Shown here: in pieces, positions 39,598 to 48,753 of the stretch
Layout of the letters: each line of letters starts with the position of its first letter
Position numbering within the stretch: the first letter of the stretch is position 1
Assembly (NCBI GenBank): GCA_012839895.1
Contig: DUML01000082.1
Span: 75,255 to 139,254 of the forward strand
DNA from: Peptococcaceae bacterium
Lineage (GTDB): Bacteria; Bacillota; Desulfitobacteriia; Desulfitobacteriales; Syntrophobotulaceae
DNA: 64,000 bases
Direction: 5' to 3'
Notes under the pieces: generated by a model
What the model was told of the DNA's origin: nothing
What the model saw: only the letters and a program-made list of their open reading frames with translations
Database searches by the model: none
Position numbers and translations under genes: made by a program

Positions 39598-40917
39598 TTA
39601 TAAATCCCGGAGGTTGAAATCATCCGGCTGGATAACATCCACTTTCAGTTCCCGCAAAACCACACCGTCAGAACGTTCTTCCAGGATAGCCGAAGAAATG
39701 CCAACCTCAAGATCAAGGCCCTTTAAATGCCTTATATTTTTAACATTAAATTCCAAAAATTGGTATTCATTGTTTTGTTTATATTTTAAAACATTTTTTT
39801 GCTTAAATCTTTGCAAGACAAGAGGAATATCATCGCCAAAAACTTTGGCTGTTTTCAGGAAATAATCTTGAGGTGAGAAATACAATAAATCTGATTTAGG
39901 GTGTTTGAAATTCTGCTGGTAAACCTGGCCGGTATGTTTATTCTCCAGTGAACAATAGTGGATGCCAATTTTCAATTGTTCAGCCAGAGCAAAATCCAAA
40001 AGCTCCAAACATTCCAACTCACTTTTCGATACCGGTAATCCTCCGGCATACCAGTAATTGTACAAAATCAAAAAAGGAGGATTCTTTATTTTAAAGCCTC
40101 GCTTTTGGAAGCTTTCTCTATTGTGAAAAGGAAAACAAAATTCCAAAAGATTAATACCCTTTATCCCCATGGTATTTAAAGTAAGCAAAAGTTCCTTCAT
40201 TTCCTGAAGAGTACCGGGAATTACCGGCATCTCTACCATGACATCCCGGATGTATTCCTGGGCCAGAGCCATCCGTTCATAAACCTTTTGTTTGGAGGAA
40301 AAATCATCTTCCAGTTTGACACTGAAACGTATTTCAGTCAGCCCTGCCTTCTGCAGCTGCTGCAGGAGCTCTGCATCAAGCAAATCACCGGAGGTATAGA
40401 GCCTGGTATGGGCACGGGGGAACTTTTCCTTGGCCAAACTAAAAAAATCCACTGTCTCCCGCCGATGCAAAAGGGGCTCTCCTCCTGTCAAAGCGATATA
40501 GGAAACTTTCTGCCCGGATTTAGCCAATTGGTCCAATTCAACCCGGTAATCCCTGAGGTGCCGGCGATAATAAGCATAGCCCTCTTGATTGGGATTAAAA
40601 CAATAATAACAACGACGGTGACACATTAATGAAAGAAAAAAAGTAACACTGCCTACACCTTGCCGGCAAGCCTCACAAGCCGGGGAAAGCCAGTTAAGGT
40701 AAATGCTTTTTCCTGCATTACGGAAGCTAACCCCCTTCAAGCGAAGCTTGGCAAGCAGGGTATTCCGTTCCTCATTGAGATCCCGATCAAGTGAGAGCCC
40801 CTGGGCTTGAACCTGTTCCAAGTAGTCCATATAGACATTTTCATATATACTAACATACTTTTTTAAGAGAGGGTTTTTAATCCTCGCTAAAGAATTACCT
40901 CCACCGGCTAAATTCAT
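39598..40917 (-). CDS. Radical SAM protein of unassigned function
   Basis: About 439 residues. The radical SAM cluster motif is CHRRCYYCF (CxxxCxxC), followed by LTGGEPLLH, and SVKLEDDF later in the barrel. Before the barrel there are about 90 residues with CEACRQG. The C-terminal half shows no SPASM-type Cys cluster. ATG at 40917 is 11 bases after AAGGGG; TTG at 40923 is 5 bases after it and also possible. It converges on the second molybdoenzyme pair with a 45-base gap. No peptide substrate or partner enzyme is seen. Maturation of a nearby enzyme is a guess from position. Confidence 0.8.
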   Translation of the reverse strand: MNLAGGGNSLARIKNPLLKKYVSIYENVYMDYLEQVQAQGLSLDRDLNEERNTLLAKLRLKGVSFRNAGKSIYLNWLSPACEACRQGVGSVTFFLSLMCHRRCYYCFNPNQEGYAYYRRHLRDYRVELDQLAKSGQKVSYIALTGGEPLLHRRETVDFFSLAKEKFPRAHTRLYTSGDLLDAELLQQLQKAGLTEIRFSVKLEDDFSSKQKVYERMALAQEYIRDVMVEMPVIPGTLQEMKELLLTLNTMGIKGINLLEFCFPFHNRESFQKRGFKIKNPPFLILYNYWYAGGLPVSKSELECLELLDFALAEQLKIGIHYCSLENKHTGQVYQQNFKHPKSDLLYFSPQDYFLKTAKVFGDDIPLVLQRFKQKNVLKYKQNNEYQFLEFNVKNIRHLKGLDLEVGISSAILEERSDGVVLRELKVDVIQPDDFNLRDL

Positions 40918-41139
40918 AAACAACTTCGCCCCTTAATTACATTTTCAATTCAAACTATTTCCTGCCAATAAACTTCTTTGTTCAATAAAGCTCTTTATTC
41001 CGGTTAATAGCTTCATTTGCTTTATCTTTAAGCTTTATTCTTAACTATTGCTTTTATCTTATTAACTTTTTCTTCAAGTCAATTGCAGTAAACAGTCTCT
41101 ACTTAATAAACCGATTATACTTGATAAGAAGAGAAATTT

Positions 41140-41215: not shown

Positions 41216-41542
41216 TTAATAATACACGATAAACACATAATTCAAAAATGCCCCCATCAAGGCCAAAATTAGCCCACCATATCTTATTGCGGCTTTAATC
41301 AGAGGGATCTTTTTTTGATTTCTGACCAGGTAATCCTCATTCTCCTTCTTCAGGACTTCAAAGAAAATCCTAGGTCTAAAAAAAGCTAGCAACCCCAAAA
41401 TAACATAAGTGCCAAACCCGGCGTAAACCAAAATATCCAAGTTCAAATTACAAGCAACAATAAACGCAATTAAATAACAAAAAATTAGGCTAAAGAAAAT
41501 TTTCTCAAAAGTTGTCCAGGATTTATCAAAAATACGTTTCAT
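41216..41542 (-). CDS. Small three-helix membrane protein A
   Basis: 108 residues from ATG 41542, chosen because AGAAAGG lies 8 bases before it; an ATG two codons earlier is closer to the site. Predicted helices at about 12-36, 40-60 and 86-106. The middle reads TYVILGLLAFFRPRIFFEVLKK and aligns with NYLIIGLAITIRPAFVVDIMRK of the protein at 41899, so the two are paralogues. A 20-bp duplication covers its ribosome site. Function unknown; own terminator. Confidence 0.65.
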   Translation of the reverse strand: MKRIFDKSWTTFEKIFFSLIFCYLIAFIVACNLNLDILVYAGFGTYVILGLLAFFRPRIFFEVLKKENEDYLVRNQKKIPLIKAAIRYGGLILALMGAFLNYVFIVYY

Positions 41543-41582
41543 GCTCATTACCTTTCTAAATAGCTCATTACCTTTCCAAATA
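41543..41582. repeat. 20-bp tandem duplication of a ribosome site and start codon
   Basis: GCTCATTACCTTTCTAAATA (41543-41562) is repeated at 41563-41582 with one change (T to C). On the minus strand each unit carries GAAAGG and an ATG, directly before the coding start of small membrane protein A. Confidence 0.9.
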
Positions 41583-41764
41583 TTTAGAATGTAAGCCCAT
41601 ACAAAAGTAAAAAACAATTATTGACGGATATAGGAATTCCAGTTTCGGAATCACCCTTTAAAATCACGCTTTAGATGTTGGGTGATGAATGACGAACAAA
41701 CCGTAAGCAGTAATTATTATAAAGGATTAGGCCATAAAATTGTGCAAGTAAATCTTCCCAACGG

Positions 41765-41898: not shown

Positions 41899-42291
41899 TT
41901 ATTGGATTGTAAGATAATAATAAATAACAAGGCCTACCACTATAAACACCAGGCCAAAACCCCTAATCACCAGATGAAGTTTCTTCAATTTATCTCCGTA
42001 TATTTCTTCGAATCTATAATTTCGCTTCCTCATAATATCAACAACAAAAGCCGGCCGGATAGTAATGGCTAAGCCGATAATCAAGTAATTAATAAGAACG
42101 ACGTAAATCATGATATCCTGTTCCAGTAAAAAATCCAAAGGTATGGCCGCTAAAATAATAAGAAACAGAAAAATTAAAAGTCTTTCTAATGAACCCAGTT
42201 TTTTATCTCCGGGAACATTCCTGACTCTGTCACGAGACTTTGCGGTAATGCCTTTCTGGGCTAAATACTGTTCTTTCCTGGATGAGTACAT
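41899..42291 (-). CDS. Small three-helix membrane protein B
   Basis: 130 residues. A basic, soluble N-terminal 35 residues (SSRKEQYLAQKGITAKSRD) precede three helices at about 36-56, 60-80 and 106-127. It shares the 'IG-helix, R-P, short charged loop, R-G helix' pattern with protein A at 41216. ATG after GGGAGG. It lies 85 bases after pheA with no terminator between, so it may be partly co-transcribed with the aro operon. Function unknown. Confidence 0.65.
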   Translation of the reverse strand: MYSSRKEQYLAQKGITAKSRDRVRNVPGDKKLGSLERLLIFLFLIILAAIPLDFLLEQDIMIYVVLINYLIIGLAITIRPAFVVDIMRKRNYRFEEIYGDKLKKLHLVIRGFGLVFIVVGLVIYYYLTIQ

Positions 42292-42376: not shown

Positions 42377-43597
42377 CTAAGAATCCGAACAATAATTACC
42401 TAAAAGCTGGAAAAAGGTGCTGGCCCTTTTAATCTCGGCAACTGCTTTTTGAACCTCAGGTCTGGCTAAATTGCCTTCAAAATCAATATAAAAAAGGTAT
42501 TCCCAAGTCTTCTGGGGTAAGGGCCGGGATTCAATCTTAAGCATGTTTAATCCGTTTAGTGCAAAATGGCTTAGAGTCCTGTACAAGGAGCCAGGTTGAT
42601 GGGCAAGCGCCACCGCCAAGCTTATTTTATTGTTTAACTCTGAAACCAGAAGTTCCCTGCCGATAATAATAAACCTGGTATAATTCTCAGGAGAATTGTT
42701 AATCCCTTTTGCCAAAATAGCCAGGTTATATAACTCGGCGGCCCGTCGGCTGGCTATTGCCGCTTTGTCACCTGAAAGGCTCTCCGCCACCAGTTTGGCG
42801 CTCACTGCCGTATTACTGCAGGCGGCCTGCCTCCAGTGAGGATATTTTTGCAGGAAATCACTGCATTGCAAAAAAGCTTGAGGATGGGAATAAACCTCCC
42901 GGATATCTTCTAACTTAGTCCCAGCCAGAGCAAGCAAGTTATGGTCAACCTGCAGACACTTTTCGCCTACAATGTAAAAACCATAACGGCAAAGGAGATC
43001 ATAAACTTCGGCAATTCCCCCGGTAGAAGAGTTTTCCAGCGGCAATATTCCGTAATCGATCTCTCCCGCTTGCAGGGCTTTACAAACGTCAGCAAAACCG
43101 GGGTAATTTATGGAACGGGTTAAAAACTCCTCGCCCCCTGGAGCAAAATACTCCCTTAAAGCCTGTTCACTAAAAGAGCCGGGAACTCCCTGGAACCCTA
43201 CGGTTACTTTTTTGGCCTTTAAAATTATTGTTTCTGTACTCCAAATTTCCGGCTCGGCAATTTTTATCTTTTCGGCTTTGCCCTCATTTGCAGAAGCAGC
43301 CTCTTGAACGTAATTATCCAGCTTTTCAAAGTACTCCGCTTGATACTTTTTACTAATATCCATAATGGTTTGAAAAAATCTGACCGCTTGTTCCCGTACG
43401 AAAGCGTCAGGGATTTCCCTTGTTTTGGCCAATACTTCCTGTTCCCTGCCTTGATCCAAAATCGGAATGTTGTTGGCTTTTTTGTAATCTGCTATTTGCA
43501 GAACAGTTTTCATCCTTAGGCTGAAAAGTTGCAAGAGTTCTTGGTCAAGACGGTCTATTTCTTGCCTAAGCTTATTGAGGTTTTCTATCCTATCCAC
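42377..43597 (-). CDS. pheA: Chorismate mutase / prephenate dehydratase (P-protein)
   Basis: Makes phenylpyruvate from chorismate, the committed route to phenylalanine. 406 residues: an N-terminal AroQ-type chorismate mutase helix set (residues 1-90, LRQEIDRLDQELLQLFSLR), then prephenate dehydratase (about 130-310: GVPGSFSEQAL, LPLENSSTGG, and NYTRFIII with the catalytic Thr), then an ACT domain with the Phe-binding ESRP (KIESRP). Feedback inhibition by Phe is expected. GTG start after GGAGGGG, overlapping the aroC 3' end by 13 bases. Last gene of the aro operon. Confidence 0.96.
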   Translation of the reverse strand: MDRIENLNKLRQEIDRLDQELLQLFSLRMKTVLQIADYKKANNIPILDQGREQEVLAKTREIPDAFVREQAVRFFQTIMDISKKYQAEYFEKLDNYVQEAASANEGKAEKIKIAEPEIWSTETIILKAKKVTVGFQGVPGSFSEQALREYFAPGGEEFLTRSINYPGFADVCKALQAGEIDYGILPLENSSTGGIAEVYDLLCRYGFYIVGEKCLQVDHNLLALAGTKLEDIREVYSHPQAFLQCSDFLQKYPHWRQAACSNTAVSAKLVAESLSGDKAAIASRRAAELYNLAILAKGINNSPENYTRFIIIGRELLVSELNNKISLAVALAHQPGSLYRTLSHFALNGLNMLKIESRPLPQKTWEYLFYIDFEGNLARPEVQKAVAEIKRASTFFQLLGNYCSDS

Positions 43598-44685
43598 CCT
43601 GTCCCCTCCTTTTCGATTATTAGATCTAAAAGCGCCAGTGCTGCCACACCCTCTACCACAGGGACTGCTCTGGGGACAATACAGGGGTCGTGCCTACCTT
43701 TTATCTTAATTTCTACTTCTTCTTTTTTTACCAAGTGGACCGTCCTTTGGGCTAACCCGATGGAGGGGGTAGGTTTGAAAGCGGTGCGGAAGATTAAAGG
43801 CATTCCATTGGTAAGCCCTCCCTGAATCCCGCCGCTATGGTTAGTAGTAGTTGTTACTTGGCCATTCTGCATGCTAAATTGGTCATTAGCCTGAGAACCG
43901 CGCATCTTCGTAAGCTCAAAACCCGAGCCGAATTCCACTCCTTTAACTGCCGGTATGGCAAAAAGAAGATGGGCCAGTTTACTTTCTACGGAATCAAAAA
44001 AAGGTGAACCCACTCCTACCGGCAAACCGAGGACAGCAGTCTCCAGGATTCCCCCAAGGGAATCTTTCTCCTCTTTAACTTGCAGTATTTTTTCTTGCAT
44101 CAAAAGCCCCTTGGCCTCATCAAGAACCGGAAATTTACTGGCCTTAAGTCCCTTTATTGTTGCCTGGTTAATCCGGACAGGATCGAATTTTTCTTCCCTA
44201 ATCTCCCCTATACCTAAGATATGGCTGCCAATTACTATTTGGCGTTGAGCAAGAATTTGCTGGGCAATTGCTCCCGCCAGTACCAGCGGTGCTGTCAACC
44301 TGCCCGAAAAATGCCCTCCTCCCCGATAATCATTAAAACCGGAATATTTAACCCAAGCAGGGTAATCGGCATGCCCGGGACGAGGGGTCTCTTTTAGTTC
44401 CTCATAATCTCCGCTTTTTTGGTCCTTGTTTTCAATAAGAAAGCTCAAAGGGGATCCGTTTGTCTTTCCGTTAAAATAACCGCTTAAAATTATAAACTCA
44501 TCCTCTTCATTCCTGGCTGTGGAGAGCATCGAACTACCCGGTTTTCTCCTGCTTAATTCTTTTTTGAGAAAATCCAAGTCCAATTCGAGACCTGCAGGAA
44601 GGCCGCTTATGATAATACCGATACCCCTTCCATGAGATTCTCCGAAAATGGATAATTTAATATTTTCACCCCAAACTCCGCTCAT
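43585..44685 (-). CDS. aroC: Chorismate synthase
   Basis: Uses reduced FMN to make chorismate from EPSP. 366 residues with IFGESHGRGIGIIISGLPAG, RRKPGSSMLSTARNEEDE, GHADYP and GGGHFSGR, and the C-terminal RHDPCIVPRAVPVVE. ATG at 44685 is preferred (GGGAGG 8 bases upstream; proteins of the family begin near SGVWGENIKLSIFGESHG). It overlaps the aroA end by 20 bases. Confidence 0.97.
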   Translation of the reverse strand: MSGVWGENIKLSIFGESHGRGIGIIISGLPAGLELDLDFLKKELSRRKPGSSMLSTARNEEDEFIILSGYFNGKTNGSPLSFLIENKDQKSGDYEELKETPRPGHADYPAWVKYSGFNDYRGGGHFSGRLTAPLVLAGAIAQQILAQRQIVIGSHILGIGEIREEKFDPVRINQATIKGLKASKFPVLDEAKGLLMQEKILQVKEEKDSLGGILETAVLGLPVGVGSPFFDSVESKLAHLLFAIPAVKGVEFGSGFELTKMRGSQANDQFSMQNGQVTTTTNHSGGIQGGLTNGMPLIFRTAFKPTPSIGLAQRTVHLVKKEEVEIKIKGRHDPCIVPRAVPVVEGVAALALLDLIIEKEGTGWIG

Positions 44686-45991
44686 AGCATTTTCCTCCCA
44701 ATTTCTCGTAATCTTGCCAGAAGTGAGGATATGACTTCCTAACGGCCTCATAGCCGGTGATTTTAAGGGGTTTAAGGCATTTAACCGCTGCTATTGCCAG
44801 GGCCATTGCTATCCTGTGGTCATTCCAACTGTTCACTGTTCCTCCTTGTAAATTCTTGACACCTTCGATTAACAAGCCGTCATTTGTTTCCTGGACTTGG
44901 CCGCCAATTTTATTAAGCTCGGTAGCTATGGCTTTCAACCTGTCGGATTCCTTCATTCTAAGCCTCCCGGCATTTACGATCCTGGTAGTACCCTGGCTTA
45001 AAGCCCCTAAAACCGCTAAGATCGGGACTAAATCCGGGCAGTGCTCGGCATTAATCACCGTCCCTTGGGTCGGTCCGGCTAAAACACTAAGTTTGCCGTC
45101 TTGCCAATTTAATCTAGCTCCCATCTGCCGGGCAATATCCAGGATAGCTTTATCCCCTTGGAGGGAATCCGGTTGCAAAGCAAGGCAGTCTATTCTCTTG
45201 CCTAAAATGCCGGCCACAATCCAAAAAGCAGCTTGGGAATAATCACCTTCAACCCGATAGTGGCAAGGTTGATACTTTTGCAGGCCCTTAATTAAGAATT
45301 CCCTATATTCCCTATTCTCCACCTGAATACCAAATTCTCGCAGGACAGCTAAAGTTAGATCCACGTAACCCCGAGACTCCAAAGCGGTTGTAAGAATGAC
45401 TTTGGAATCACCTTCTAAGCATGGGAGCAAAAACAAAAGACCGGAAATGAATTGGGAACTAACGTTGCCTTGAAGACGGAAAGTCCCCGGTTTAATGCTG
45501 CCGTGAACTGTCAAGGGAAGAAAACCTTTATTCCCTGTTTCGTATCTAACCCCCTGTTCGGCAAAGAGCTGCAGGTAGATATCTAAAGGGCGTTCCCCCA
45601 ATTTACCCCGGCCTAGAAAAATAACTTTTTTCCCGCCGCAGGTGGCAAGGGGCAACAGGAAGCGTAAAGTCGAACCGGACTCTCGGCAATCTATAGTATC
45701 CTTAAGCATCTTAGGAGGATAACTGCCTTGAATACTAATTGTTAAAGGCTTGCCAATTATATTCTCCTTATCCTTATCTTTCCCCATGAATTGCACTTCT
45801 TTAACTACTGCTCCCATTGCTTCCATCCCTTCCAAAGTGGCCGCGATATCTTCAGAAAGCACCACATTCTCTATCTTGCTCACTCCATCGGCCAAACCGG
45901 CACAAATGATAGCGCGATGGCTAAGACTCTTGGAAGGGGGTATGCTGATTTCTCCTTTAAGAATTGTCGGTTCAATTACTAAAACCTTCAA
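44666..45991 (-). CDS. aroA: EPSP synthase (3-phosphoshikimate 1-carboxyvinyltransferase)
   Basis: Transfers enolpyruvyl from PEP to shikimate-3-phosphate. 441 residues. Marks: PPSKSLSHRAIICAGLADG, CRESGSTLRFLLPL, GRLRMKESDRL and WNDHRIAMALAI. TTG start after TAGGAGG, first residues MKVLVIEPTILKG. The GSTLRFL region differs from the classic GTT of class I, so it is probably a class II type; glyphosate behaviour cannot be read reliably. Confidence 0.96.
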   Translation of the reverse strand: MKVLVIEPTILKGEISIPPSKSLSHRAIICAGLADGVSKIENVVLSEDIAATLEGMEAMGAVVKEVQFMGKDKDKENIIGKPLTISIQGSYPPKMLKDTIDCRESGSTLRFLLPLATCGGKKVIFLGRGKLGERPLDIYLQLFAEQGVRYETGNKGFLPLTVHGSIKPGTFRLQGNVSSQFISGLLFLLPCLEGDSKVILTTALESRGYVDLTLAVLREFGIQVENREYREFLIKGLQKYQPCHYRVEGDYSQAAFWIVAGILGKRIDCLALQPDSLQGDKAILDIARQMGARLNWQDGKLSVLAGPTQGTVINAEHCPDLVPILAVLGALSQGTTRIVNAGRLRMKESDRLKAIATELNKIGGQVQETNDGLLIEGVKNLQGGTVNSWNDHRIAMALAIAAVKCLKPLKITGYEAVRKSYPHFWQDYEKLGGKCYERSLG

Positions 45992-46151: not shown

Positions 46152-47012
46152 CTATCTAATAGTAGCGGACATTATACTCGCCGATTTCCGCAGGAGGCTC
46201 TCCAACTCCCCCTTGTTATCATTCTTCAGGGCTGATTGAAACTTGGCTATATTATCCCTAAAAATATCCAACTCTGTCAAAATATTTTCTTTGTTATCCA
46301 ATAGCAGCTCGGCCCAAAGGGTTGCGTTCATCCGAGCAACTCTGGTTGCATCCCGAAAACTGCCGCCAATGAATTTTCCTAATTCGGAAATTTGGCAACT
46401 ATTCGCTAAAGCCGCAGCCATAACATGGGGCAATTGACTGGTAAAAGCAATAATCTTATCGTGTTCCTCAGGGGAAAGATAAATTGGCTCTCGGCAACCC
46501 AAACCTCTGACCAGCTTTTCCAGGATTGACAGGCTCTCAGCTTTATTACCCTGAACAGGAGTCAGCAAATAATTGGCTCCTCGAAATATTTCCGCCGAAG
46601 CATGGACAAAACCGCTTACTTCTTTACCGGCTAAAGGATGCCCTCCTATAAAGTCCAGGTCTGCTCTTAAGAAAGATCTGATTTCCTGAATTACTTTCTG
46701 TTTATTCCCAACGGCATCGGTCAGGATTGCCCCCGTTTTAAAATGGGGCATATTATCCTGGACAAACCTGACCGCTGCACTTGGATAAACACAAATTATC
46801 ACCAAATCGGATTGGGCTAAAGGGATTCTCCCTTCCCGAAACCCCCCGTCAATAGCGCCTAGCCTTTCAGCTTCTCTTAAGACATGCTCATCAATGTCTA
46901 CTGCCCAGATTTTCTTGGGCTTTAAATTTTTTAAAGCCCAGGCATAAGAACCGCCGATCAAGCCTAAACCCACAATTGTTATTTCCTTTTCCCTAAAATC
47001 GCTTTCCTCCAT
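46152..47012 (-). CDS. tyrA: Prephenate dehydrogenase
   Basis: NAD-dependent oxidation of prephenate to 4-hydroxyphenylpyruvate, the tyrosine branch. 286 residues with the Rossmann loop VGLGLIGGSYAWALK and active-site segments GGHPLAGKEVSGF and TSQLPHVMAAAL (catalytic His). It lacks a C-terminal ACT domain, so Tyr control may lie mainly in transcription. ATG after GGGGGAAA. Confidence 0.95.
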   Translation of the reverse strand: MEESDFREKEITIVGLGLIGGSYAWALKNLKPKKIWAVDIDEHVLREAERLGAIDGGFREGRIPLAQSDLVIICVYPSAAVRFVQDNMPHFKTGAILTDAVGNKQKVIQEIRSFLRADLDFIGGHPLAGKEVSGFVHASAEIFRGANYLLTPVQGNKAESLSILEKLVRGLGCREPIYLSPEEHDKIIAFTSQLPHVMAAALANSCQISELGKFIGGSFRDATRVARMNATLWAELLLDNKENILTELDIFRDNIAKFQSALKNDNKGELESLLRKSASIMSATIR

Positions 47013-47083: not shown

Positions 47084-48097
47084 CTAGATGATTTTCTTTT
47101 GGATTTTAGCCAGTTCGCGCAAAGATTCCATCATACTGCTGAATCTTTCCGGCTTAATAGACTGCTGTCCGTCGCATTTAGCGTTAGCCGGGTCATTGTG
47201 AACTTCCACCATAACCCCGTCTGCCCCAACAACCATCGCTGCCTTGGCCATGGGCTCAACAAGCCACCAAATCCCTCCGGCATGGCTGGGATCAACAATA
47301 ACAGGCAAATGGCTTAATTTCTTTATTACCGGGACCGAACTAAGGTCAAGAGTATTACGGGTATATTTTTCAAAAGTCCTTATTCCTCTTTCACAAAGAA
47401 TAACCTGGTCGTTGCCTTGGGCTAAAATATATTCGGCGGCGAGAAGCAGTTCCTCAATAGTTGCAGATAAACCCCGTTTAAGAATAATTGGTTTGCAAGT
47501 TTTTCCGACTTCTTTTAAGAGTTCAAAATTTTGCATATTACGGGCGCCGATTTGAATCACATCTACGTTTTCAATGAACAACTCCAAGTGTTCAAGGGAC
47601 ATTAATTCGGAGACAATCGGCAGTCCGGTCTTTTCTCTGGCAAGCTTCAAGAGTTCCAGGCCGTTCTCCCTTAAGCCTTGGAAACTATAAGGCGAAGACC
47701 TGGGTTTGAAAGCGCCTCCCCTCAGGAATCCCGCTCCGGCTTTCTGGACATCTTCAGCAATGGATATGATTTGATCTTCACTCTCAACCGAACAGGGGCC
47801 GGCAATCACCGCAAAATGATCCCCGCCAATCTTCTTATTTCCAATCTGAACAATTGTATCCTCGGGATGGAATAATCTATTGGCAATTTTATAGGGTTCT
47901 TGAACCCGGATTACCTTTTCTACTCCATCCAAAGCTCTCAACCGGTCGGCATCAACTGAACTGGTGTTACCAATCAGGCCAAAAATACGGTAATTAACCC
48001 CCTGGGATTCATGAATTTCACATCCTAAATCCAGCAATCTTTCTCTTAGCTTATTAATGACTTCATCAGGTGTTTTGGGTTCCATAACAATAATCAT
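47084..48097 (-). CDS. aroF: DAHP synthase (type I-beta, regulatory head)
   Basis: First step of the shikimate pathway: PEP + erythrose 4-phosphate. 337 residues. An N-terminal ferredoxin-like regulatory domain (1-68, MIIVMEPKTPDEVINKLRE) is typical of the Thermotoga-type feedback-controlled enzymes. The barrel has AGPCSVES, RGGAFKPRSSPYSFQG and DPSHAGG. ATG after GGAGGTC. First structural gene after the attenuator. Confidence 0.96.
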   Translation of the reverse strand: MIIVMEPKTPDEVINKLRERLLDLGCEIHESQGVNYRIFGLIGNTSSVDADRLRALDGVEKVIRVQEPYKIANRLFHPEDTIVQIGNKKIGGDHFAVIAGPCSVESEDQIISIAEDVQKAGAGFLRGGAFKPRSSPYSFQGLRENGLELLKLAREKTGLPIVSELMSLEHLELFIENVDVIQIGARNMQNFELLKEVGKTCKPIILKRGLSATIEELLLAAEYILAQGNDQVILCERGIRTFEKYTRNTLDLSSVPVIKKLSHLPVIVDPSHAGGIWWLVEPMAKAAMVVGADGVMVEVHNDPANAKCDGQQSIKPERFSSMMESLRELAKIQKKII

Positions 48098-48205
48098 AGT
48101 AATGACCTCCGTTTCCTCATTTTCGCTACTTAGGCTGTTTAATGACTTGTTTAAAACTAATTGTTTAAATTTTTGAGAACTATTTGCTTGAAATTAAGGT
48201 TGTTT

Positions 48206-48277
48206 ATCTCGTCCTGCCGGAAACGTCTTTCCGGCTGAAACGAGATTGAAGAATTTGCCCGGCGCCGGCGGCAAATT
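48206..48277 (-). promoter_or_regulatory. Two strong hairpins in the aroF 5' region
   Basis: Hairpin 1: ATCTCGT/ACGAGAT (48206-48212 and 48240-48246) outside GCCGGAAA/TTTCCGGC (48216-48223 and 48228-48235). Hairpin 2: AATTTGCC/GGCAAATT (48252-48259 and 48270-48277) with a GC-only centre. Neither has a U-run, so they are not plain terminators. They lie between the attenuator and aroF. Confidence 0.6.
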
Positions 48278-48309
48278 TTAGAAAGCTAATGAGTAAAAGA
48301 TAATGAAAT

Positions 48310-48343
48310 AAAAAAAGAAGGCCCATTTTTCTAATGAGCCTTC
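48310..48343 (-). terminator. Attenuator terminator before aroF
   Basis: On the minus strand GAAGGCTCATT (48343-48333) pairs with AATGGGCCTTC (48327-48317), 11 bp with one U-G, loop AGAAA, then TTTTTTTATTT. Its 5' arm contains GCTCATTAG, complementary to the antiterminator at 48470-48462. Confidence 0.93.
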
Positions 48344-48423
48344 CTTAACATTTACTGATTAAACTTGTGCCTGGATTTTAATTTGTCCTAAGATTTGGAC
48401 TTAATCCCTGCTTTAATCTTTGC

Positions 48424-48612
48424 TTAAGCTATTCCAGGTAGGAGATTAATCCCTCCTCGCAGCTCATTAGATAAGAGCTTCCGTATTTTTTTGTAAAACA
48501 AGCAAAAATAGCCGGTGCTAAAGTAATAATAAAAGCACAGGCTAAAGTAATAGATATAATTAACTTGTTTTACTTGTTCTACGGATCTCTTCCTAGTGAG
48601 CACTTCCATCAT
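48424..48612 (-). CDS. Tyr/Phe-rich leader peptide of the aro operon
   Basis: 62 codons starting ATG ATG, after GGGGAG. Between residues 19 and 40 there are 8 Tyr and 5 Phe codons in 22 (YIYYFSLCFYYYF, then GYFCLFY). This is the pattern of a ribosome-stalling leader such as the pheA leader peptide of enteric bacteria. The peptide itself needs no function; scarcity of charged tRNA-Tyr or tRNA-Phe would stall the ribosome. It is located 28 bases after the predicted transcript start and upstream of aroF-tyrA-aroA-aroC-pheA. It could be misread as a small membrane protein, since the stretch is hydrophobic. Confidence 0.85.
   Translation of the reverse strand: MMEVLTRKRSVEQVKQVNYIYYFSLCFYYYFSTGYFCLFYKKIRKLLSNELRGGINLLPGIA
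48457..48485 (-). promoter_or_regulatory. Protector hairpin and antiterminator strand of the aro attenuator
   Basis: AGCTC (48479-48475) pairs with GAGCT (48465-48461), extended by CG/CG. The 3' side includes CTAATGAGC (48470-48462), a perfect 9-nt complement of GCTCATTAG in the terminator (48339-48331). A ribosome stalled on the last Tyr/Phe codons (codon 40 ends at 48493) would cover the AGCTC strand and free CTAATGAGC. Confidence 0.8.
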
Positions 48613-48645
48613 AATTCTCCCCGGAAAATTGAAATATTTTCATCA

Positions 48646-48675
48646 ATTATACTTAAGCATTTACCTTAATGTCAA
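48646..48675 (-). promoter_or_regulatory. Strong sigma-A promoter of the aro operon
   Basis: Minus strand TTGACA (48675-48670), 18-base spacer, TATAAT (48651-48646): both boxes are perfect consensus. Start near 48640. Confidence 0.93.
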
Positions 48676-48753
48676 TAATTTTTTTGTGTTCTAACCCACT
48701 GCGATGTTACTATTTTTTCTTTCTTAAATACCTTCATAATTTTTATCCTAAAG

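Follow-up and report, generated by a model that had tools for sequence, protein, structure and literature searches.

What decides whether the aromatic amino acid operon aroF-tyrA-aroA-aroC-pheA is read in this bacterium? The operon lies on the minus strand of the window, the 64-kb stretch of DNA that was analysed, and the first-pass annotation had proposed that its transcription is attenuated through a leader peptide rich in tyrosine and phenylalanine codons. Comparative genomics strongly supports this reading. Judged from the sequence and its conservation, the leader would be a ribosome-mediated transcription attenuator of the operon, with a probability of roughly 0.88.

Organization of the operon and its leader

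The five genes of the operon were assigned as follows.

47084–48097, minus strand: aroF, DAHP synthase of the AroF/PRK08673 type (NCBIfam NF006421)
46152–47012, minus strand: tyrA, prephenate dehydrogenase (best NCBIfam family, below its curated cut-off)
44666–45991, minus strand: aroA, EPSP synthase (TIGR01356)
43585–44751, minus strand: aroC, chorismate synthase (TIGR00033)
42377–43597, minus strand: pheA, chorismate mutase/prephenate dehydratase (NF008865, just above cut-off)

The N-terminus of PheA also matches TIGR01805, slightly below cut-off. On its 3' side, pheA is followed by genes for two small hydrophobic proteins that are alike in size and have no NCBIfam family (41216–41617 and 41899–42291, minus strand). 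A radical SAM protein at 39598–40923 (minus strand) is of ambiguous subfamily, with every NCBIfam match far under the cut-off.

The basic parts of the leader upstream of aroF are listed below.

48646–48675, minus strand: promoter TTGACA-18-TATAAT (12/12 consensus matches)
48617–48622, minus strand: Shine-Dalgarno sequence GGGGAG, read directly from the sequence
48424–48612, minus strand: leader ORF of 62 codons (61 from the second ATG), with orthologues in relatives
48493–48558, minus strand: Tyr/Phe codon cluster, codons 19–40, with 8 Tyr and 5 Phe
48509–48544, minus strand: hairpin P1 inside the ORF, with Tyr/Phe codons in its loop
48310–48346, minus strand: intrinsic terminator of 14 pairs with a loop of 5 and seven T at 48316–48310

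The promoter, the 62-codon leader with its GGGGAG site, the 8 Tyr and 5 Phe in residues 19–40 and a terminator with seven U had all been named in the first-pass annotation, and each was recovered. The in-frame second ATG, at 48609, has a better Shine-Dalgarno spacing than the first. Eight aromatic residues within 12 are reached in 3 of 1000 dinucleotide shuffles of the upstream region. The terminator hairpin (48346–48314) has a predicted stability of −17.8 kcal/mol, equalled by none of 200 shuffles, and the fold of the whole leader RNA has a z-score of −5.5. The locus contains what generally marks an attenuator: a translatable ORF with a Shine-Dalgarno sequence between promoter and first gene, a cluster of codons for the end products (the operon makes both Tyr and Phe), and an intrinsic terminator between ORF and gene.

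Other features of this region were also observed. GC-rich inverted repeats occupy 48180–48280, between the terminator and aroF, and the distance from the leader start to aroF is 515 nt in the window, compared to about 280–450 nt in family relatives.

Distribution of the leader

Of the 25 genomes in the window's family, 17 carry an orthologous leader, as do 59 of the 117 sampled around genome G429 from a second, Clostridium-rich family; a comparison with related genomes had been proposed in the first-pass annotation. The second family we take to be Clostridiaceae or near, from its likeness to named Clostridium loci. The remaining 8 of the 25 family genomes, from two genera whose DAHP synthases are more distant, had no match to the leader profile. 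The resulting set comprises 89 distinct leader sequences, from which one match (L182) was excluded as spurious. They start with ATG in 87 of 89 cases and have a median length of 51 aa; the F/Y character of their aromatic positions is kept. TTGAC-TATAAT-like promoters, recognised by eye, precede the leaders of relatives as well, and a terminator is again present between ORF and gene.

Where the flank extends to it, the next gene is aroF, except for four leaders in two large Clostridium-like genomes. These duplicates (L226, L227, L228 and L197, in G572 and G469) precede aroE-aroK, an AroG-type second DAHP synthase and shikimate-kinase-like genes, as read from sequence. The attenuator is duplicated onto other genes of the aromatic pathway in these genomes.

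Across a wider set of loci, an ORF with an aromatic run lies at most 400 nt 5' of aroF in 43 of 78, compared to 1.5 expected from shuffles. None was found at 39 DAHP synthase loci of order-, class- and phylum-mates, eight of which carry a T-box signature. Shorter aromatic-run ORFs (18–31 codons; L049, L050, L059, L079, L088 and others) that lack the S-x-G motif occur 5' of aroF in Oscillospiraceae-like genomes and in Brachyspira, and are perhaps a simpler form of the same control. A genome labelled Lentisphaerae has a longer ORF with a similar aromatic run in the same position.

Alternative pairings of the leader RNA

The strands involved in the alternative folds are as follows.

48587–48601, minus strand: region 1, GCUCACUAGGAAGAG, whose core GCUCACUAG (48601–48593) pairs with region 2
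48580–48585, minus strand: 5' strand UCCGUA of the 1:2 helix (partner UACGGA, 48485–48480)
48563–48573, minus strand: inner 5' strand GUAAAACAAGU of the 1:2 helix (partner GCUUGUUUUAC, 48503–48493)
48493–48503, minus strand: inner 3' strand GCUUGUUUUAC of the 1:2 helix
48473–48485, minus strand: outer 3' strands of the 1:2 helix, UACGGA (48485–48480) and CUCUU (48477–48473)
48462–48470, minus strand: region 2, CUAAUGAGC, partner of region 1 (off) or of region 3 (antiterminator, on)
48461–48479, minus strand: local AGCUC/GAGCU hairpin, weak and, by eye, not consistently kept in relatives
48331–48339, minus strand: region 3, GCUCAUUAG, in the 5' arm and loop of the terminator

The complementarity claimed between region 2 and the terminator arm is perfect: CTAATGAGC (48470–48462) against GCTCATTAG (48339–48331). 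The claim that a local AGCTC/GAGCT hairpin (48479–48461) protects region 2 stood only in part. The hairpin is present but weak (−7.3 kcal/mol, z-score −1.3, equalled by 26 of 200 shuffles) and was rejected as the protector; region 2 in fact pairs with the 5' end of the ORF. In the whole-leader fold, GCUCACUAGGAAGAG, made up of the first codons, pairs with CUCUUAUCUAAUGAGC, a stretch that contains region 2; the part that meets region 2 is GCTCACTAG (48601–48593). Inner helices join codons 5' of the aromatic run to codons 3' of it, and the 1:2 pairing is part of a fold of ∼35 bp that spans the entire ORF and encloses the Tyr/Phe codons in its loop, around P1. Regions 1 (GCTCACTAG) and 3 (GCTCATTAG) are near-copies, and the pattern GCTCAYTAG has only three matches in the 64 kb: region 1, the complement of region 2, and region 3. 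An additional CTCATTAG, also complementary to region 2, is located immediately 3' of the terminator (48286–48293, minus strand).

The 1:2 pairing was assessed across leaders with an alignment-free permutation test. Own pairs average −22.4 kcal/mol, compared to −13.4 kcal/mol for swapped ones, and none of 5000 permutations did as well. Region 1 recoded synonymously pairs worse (−14.8 vs −21.7), an average cost of ∼7 kcal/mol. Within the window's family, the inner helix shows compensatory G-C/A-U changes, and one 1:2 pair varies between G-C, A-U and G-U, with 98% of cells paired. RNAalifold found P1 alone in the Clostridium codon alignment, because regions 1 and 2 are out of register there. The protecting 1:2 pairing excludes the antiterminator, another general mark of attenuators.

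Region 2 lies 41–48 nt 3' of the second AGC codon in nearly all leaders, and in nearly all it is complementary to the 5' arm and loop of the terminator. Its reading frame differs between species, indicating that it is conserved as RNA. When region 3 was exchanged between leaders, own 2:3 pairs (−11.3 kcal/mol) proved more stable than swapped ones (−9.4 kcal/mol), and better than in all 5000 permutations; the terminator of one leader (L018) was assigned by hand for these tests. The 29 leaders without the canonical core show the same (−11.7 own vs −7.9 kcal/mol swapped; 0/5000), while the 57 with the canonical core are not significant when taken alone (378/5000). In single leaders the support is moderate, with 48 of 88 reaching p 0.05 against shuffles and 31 of 88 against synonymous recoding, a consequence of AU-rich sequence and a nearly invariant core. 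Sequence solutions for the antiterminator are highly diverse. The proposed search for covariation in related leaders thus gave a positive answer: the putative 2:3 antiterminator, which excludes the terminator, is a pairing that covaries across lineages, as expected of attenuators in general.

Two Provencibacterium leaders (L110 and L105) have a nearly perfect antiterminator of 19–20 bp (−32 and −27 kcal/mol).

A conserved hairpin around the control codons

Hairpin P1, which like region 1 had not been named in the first-pass annotation, has a predicted stability of −13.7 kcal/mol in the window (z-score −4.9). In 83 of 89 leaders it surpasses 95% of synonymous recodings in stability. Of 153 codons at its two Ser positions, 151 are AGC, compared to 16% AGC among the Ser codons of aroF genes. 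RNAalifold detects the hairpin with 84% of cells paired, vs 17–49% for slid partners, and no shuffle matches its pairing or covariation score. Compensatory changes include C-G to G-C and G-C to A-U; in L004 and L005 the former occurs together with Cys to Trp and Ser to Thr replacements. By these sequence comparisons, P1 appears to be under selection at synonymous sites.

A second hairpin 3' of P1 (P2, UAUUUUU/AAAAAUA) was rejected, as it beats synonymous recodings in just 4 of 89 leaders (p 0.05). The Lys-Lys-Ile codons 3' of the aromatic run (48492–48484 in the window) are almost always AAA AAA ATA, with ATA accounting for 50 of 52 Ile codons, compared to 39% in aroF genes. A local hairpin does not account for this constraint, which perhaps reflects pairing with the U-rich aromatic codons.

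Alternative explanations

Conservation of the leader could also arise if the peptide itself were the signal, with S-x-G-[YF]-F stalling the ribosome on free Phe/Tyr or another ligand in the manner of TnaC. The strong conservation of S-x-G and GYF over the 89 leaders, as well as the length of the leaders, would fit such an arrest peptide. However, the conservation is at the RNA level, as seen in the AGC bias of the P1 Ser codons; the P1 base pair outlasts Gly/Cys/Ser exchanges and the Cys-Ser to Trp-Thr change, and F and Y interchange freely at the aromatic positions. With the constraint lying at synonymous sites, a nascent-chain origin of S-x-G was rejected as its main cause, and we regard control by an arrest peptide as quite improbable. 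It is likewise improbable that the 5' fold mainly governs how the leader or aroF is translated, or how stable either is, with a constitutive terminator. The location of region 1 at the leader start codon, which 1:2 could hide, is what such a role would use, but the covariation of region 2 with terminator region 3 across lineages is needed for antitermination only.

A T-box, or another riboswitch that senses a small molecule or tRNA, would be the usual device, and some order- and phylum-mates do have the signature 5' of DAHP synthase genes. The genome of the window itself has nine T-boxes by the T-box covariance model, located at tyrS, pheS, trpB and a Trp transporter gene and, by reading, at ileS, thrS, serC, glyQ and valS. 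None is at the leader, where the T-box model (RF00230) has no match; nor did the window or 20 relatives give any Rfam match at the gathering threshold. A T-box or any other Rfam family in the leader was rejected on these grounds, and this explanation has hardly any probability left.

Proposed mechanism and the role of ribosomes

The sequence itself shows the three mutually exclusive pairings on which the attenuator would rest: 1:2, the antiterminator 2:3 and the terminator 3:4. When the leader is not translated, 1:2 would form, followed by the terminator. With ample Tyr-tRNA and Phe-tRNA, the ribosome would run onto region 2 and mask it, and the terminator would form again. If charged Tyr- or Phe-tRNA runs low, translation would stall on the aromatic codons; during the stall, upstream ribosomes would cover region 1, leaving region 2 free to form the antiterminator, and the operon would be read. 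P1 probably makes RNA polymerase pause and so couples it to the ribosome. We infer a response to Tyr/Phe starvation, with transcription of the operon very probably proceeding only when Tyr or Phe is short.

The effect of ribosomes was modelled by folding leaders with assumed footprints, at equilibrium and before region 4 is made, and averaging the probability of 2:3 over 79 leaders. This probability is 0.31 without a ribosome and 0.32–0.37 with a single ribosome stalled at the second AGC or the next codons (0.31 to 0.37 on aromatic codons). It rises to 0.75–0.88 when a queue reaches back from the stalled ribosome to the start (0.80–0.88 for a stall at the last aromatic codons), and to 0.82 with an initiating ribosome alone; a ribosome sitting on region 2 reduces it to 0.00–0.01. 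In this model, readthrough is expected from a stalled ribosome that has another upstream of it, and termination from one that reaches region 2. Since a single stalled ribosome fails to free region 2, either a second ribosome or kinetic or steric effects would be needed; pairing of regions 1 and 2 across a bound ribosome is permitted in the model and may meet steric hindrance. For the leader of the window, 2:3 already reaches a probability of 0.77 in ribosome-free RNA that ends short of region 4, so that its off state is less clear and kinetics must matter.

The geometry of the leaders is regular. Region 1 is centred +11.5 nt from the start codon (quartiles 11–12) and codon 12 (quartiles 12–15) is the first of the aromatic run, so that region 1 would be masked by an initiating or queued ribosome rather than by the one that stalls. 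We tentatively suggest, at less than even odds, that antitermination requires two ribosomes packed on the leader, one stalled and one initiating or queued. Region 1 may lie under the initiating ribosome, with the first control codon one ribosome length 3' of it, an arrangement that we hold as no firmer than the two-ribosome requirement. If so, the switch would sense the rate of initiation as well as aminoacyl-tRNA supply. With a ribosome length separating the control codons from region 1 at the start codon, two-ribosome attenuation is directly testable.

Comparison with known systems

The ribosome-mediated attenuators of enteric bacteria are exemplified by trpL, pheL and hisL of E. coli and Salmonella. 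The clostridial leaders share with them an ORF rich in cognate codons, mutually exclusive 1:2, 2:3 and 3:4 pairings, and a terminator before the first gene. They differ in phylum and sequence, in their longer ORF (median 51 codons), in the location of region 1 at the start codon, 5' of the control codons, and in having these codons in the 1:2 loop, around an extra conserved hairpin. In the enteric trp/phe subtype, the control codons lie in region 1, and a stalled ribosome blocks 1:2. The clostridial leaders do not belong to this subtype, given the positions of region 1 and the aromatic run and the nearly unchanged 2:3 probability modelled for a single stalled ribosome.

In clostridia, leader-peptide attenuation appears to be a widespread gate at the start of aromatic amino acid synthesis, and in the window's genome it sits beside the tyrS and pheS T-boxes in one cell; the element is also relevant to clostridial metabolic engineering. 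Searches of Rfam 15, Pfam and NCBIfam gave no match to the leader. The open-access literature yielded no description of it for Clostridia aro operons, with related predictions possible in Panina 2003 and Lopatovskaya 2010. The view that the device is unusual and may be undescribed in the group needs to be qualified, as it recurs across Clostridia and as His, Leu and Ile attenuators are known in Firmicutes.

In the B. cereus group, a T-box precedes tyrosine biosynthesis genes (PMC2494555). It controls the same pathway and also senses tRNA charging, but it binds tRNA directly and involves no leader peptide; the aro locus of the window has no T-box. A parallel in layout is uORFC-13-1, a Phe-containing uORF with a terminator 5' of aroF in Acholeplasma, for which attenuation was proposed (PMC8632094). 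Its 24 examples come from Acholeplasma and environmental sequences only (PMC8632094), it was not among the Rfam matches, and, compared by description, its published account contains neither a Tyr cluster nor a 1:2/2:3 scheme. The known leader attenuators of Firmicutes comprise His leaders of the Bacillus cereus group and Peptostreptococcaceae (PMC2965389, PMC9413887), the Leu leader of S. aureus ilvD (PMC5794164) and the Ile attenuator of Listeria (PMC5864092). Again compared by description, these serve other amino acids and other operons, and they have in common with the aro leaders the use of ribosome-mediated attenuation where T-boxes are the usual device.
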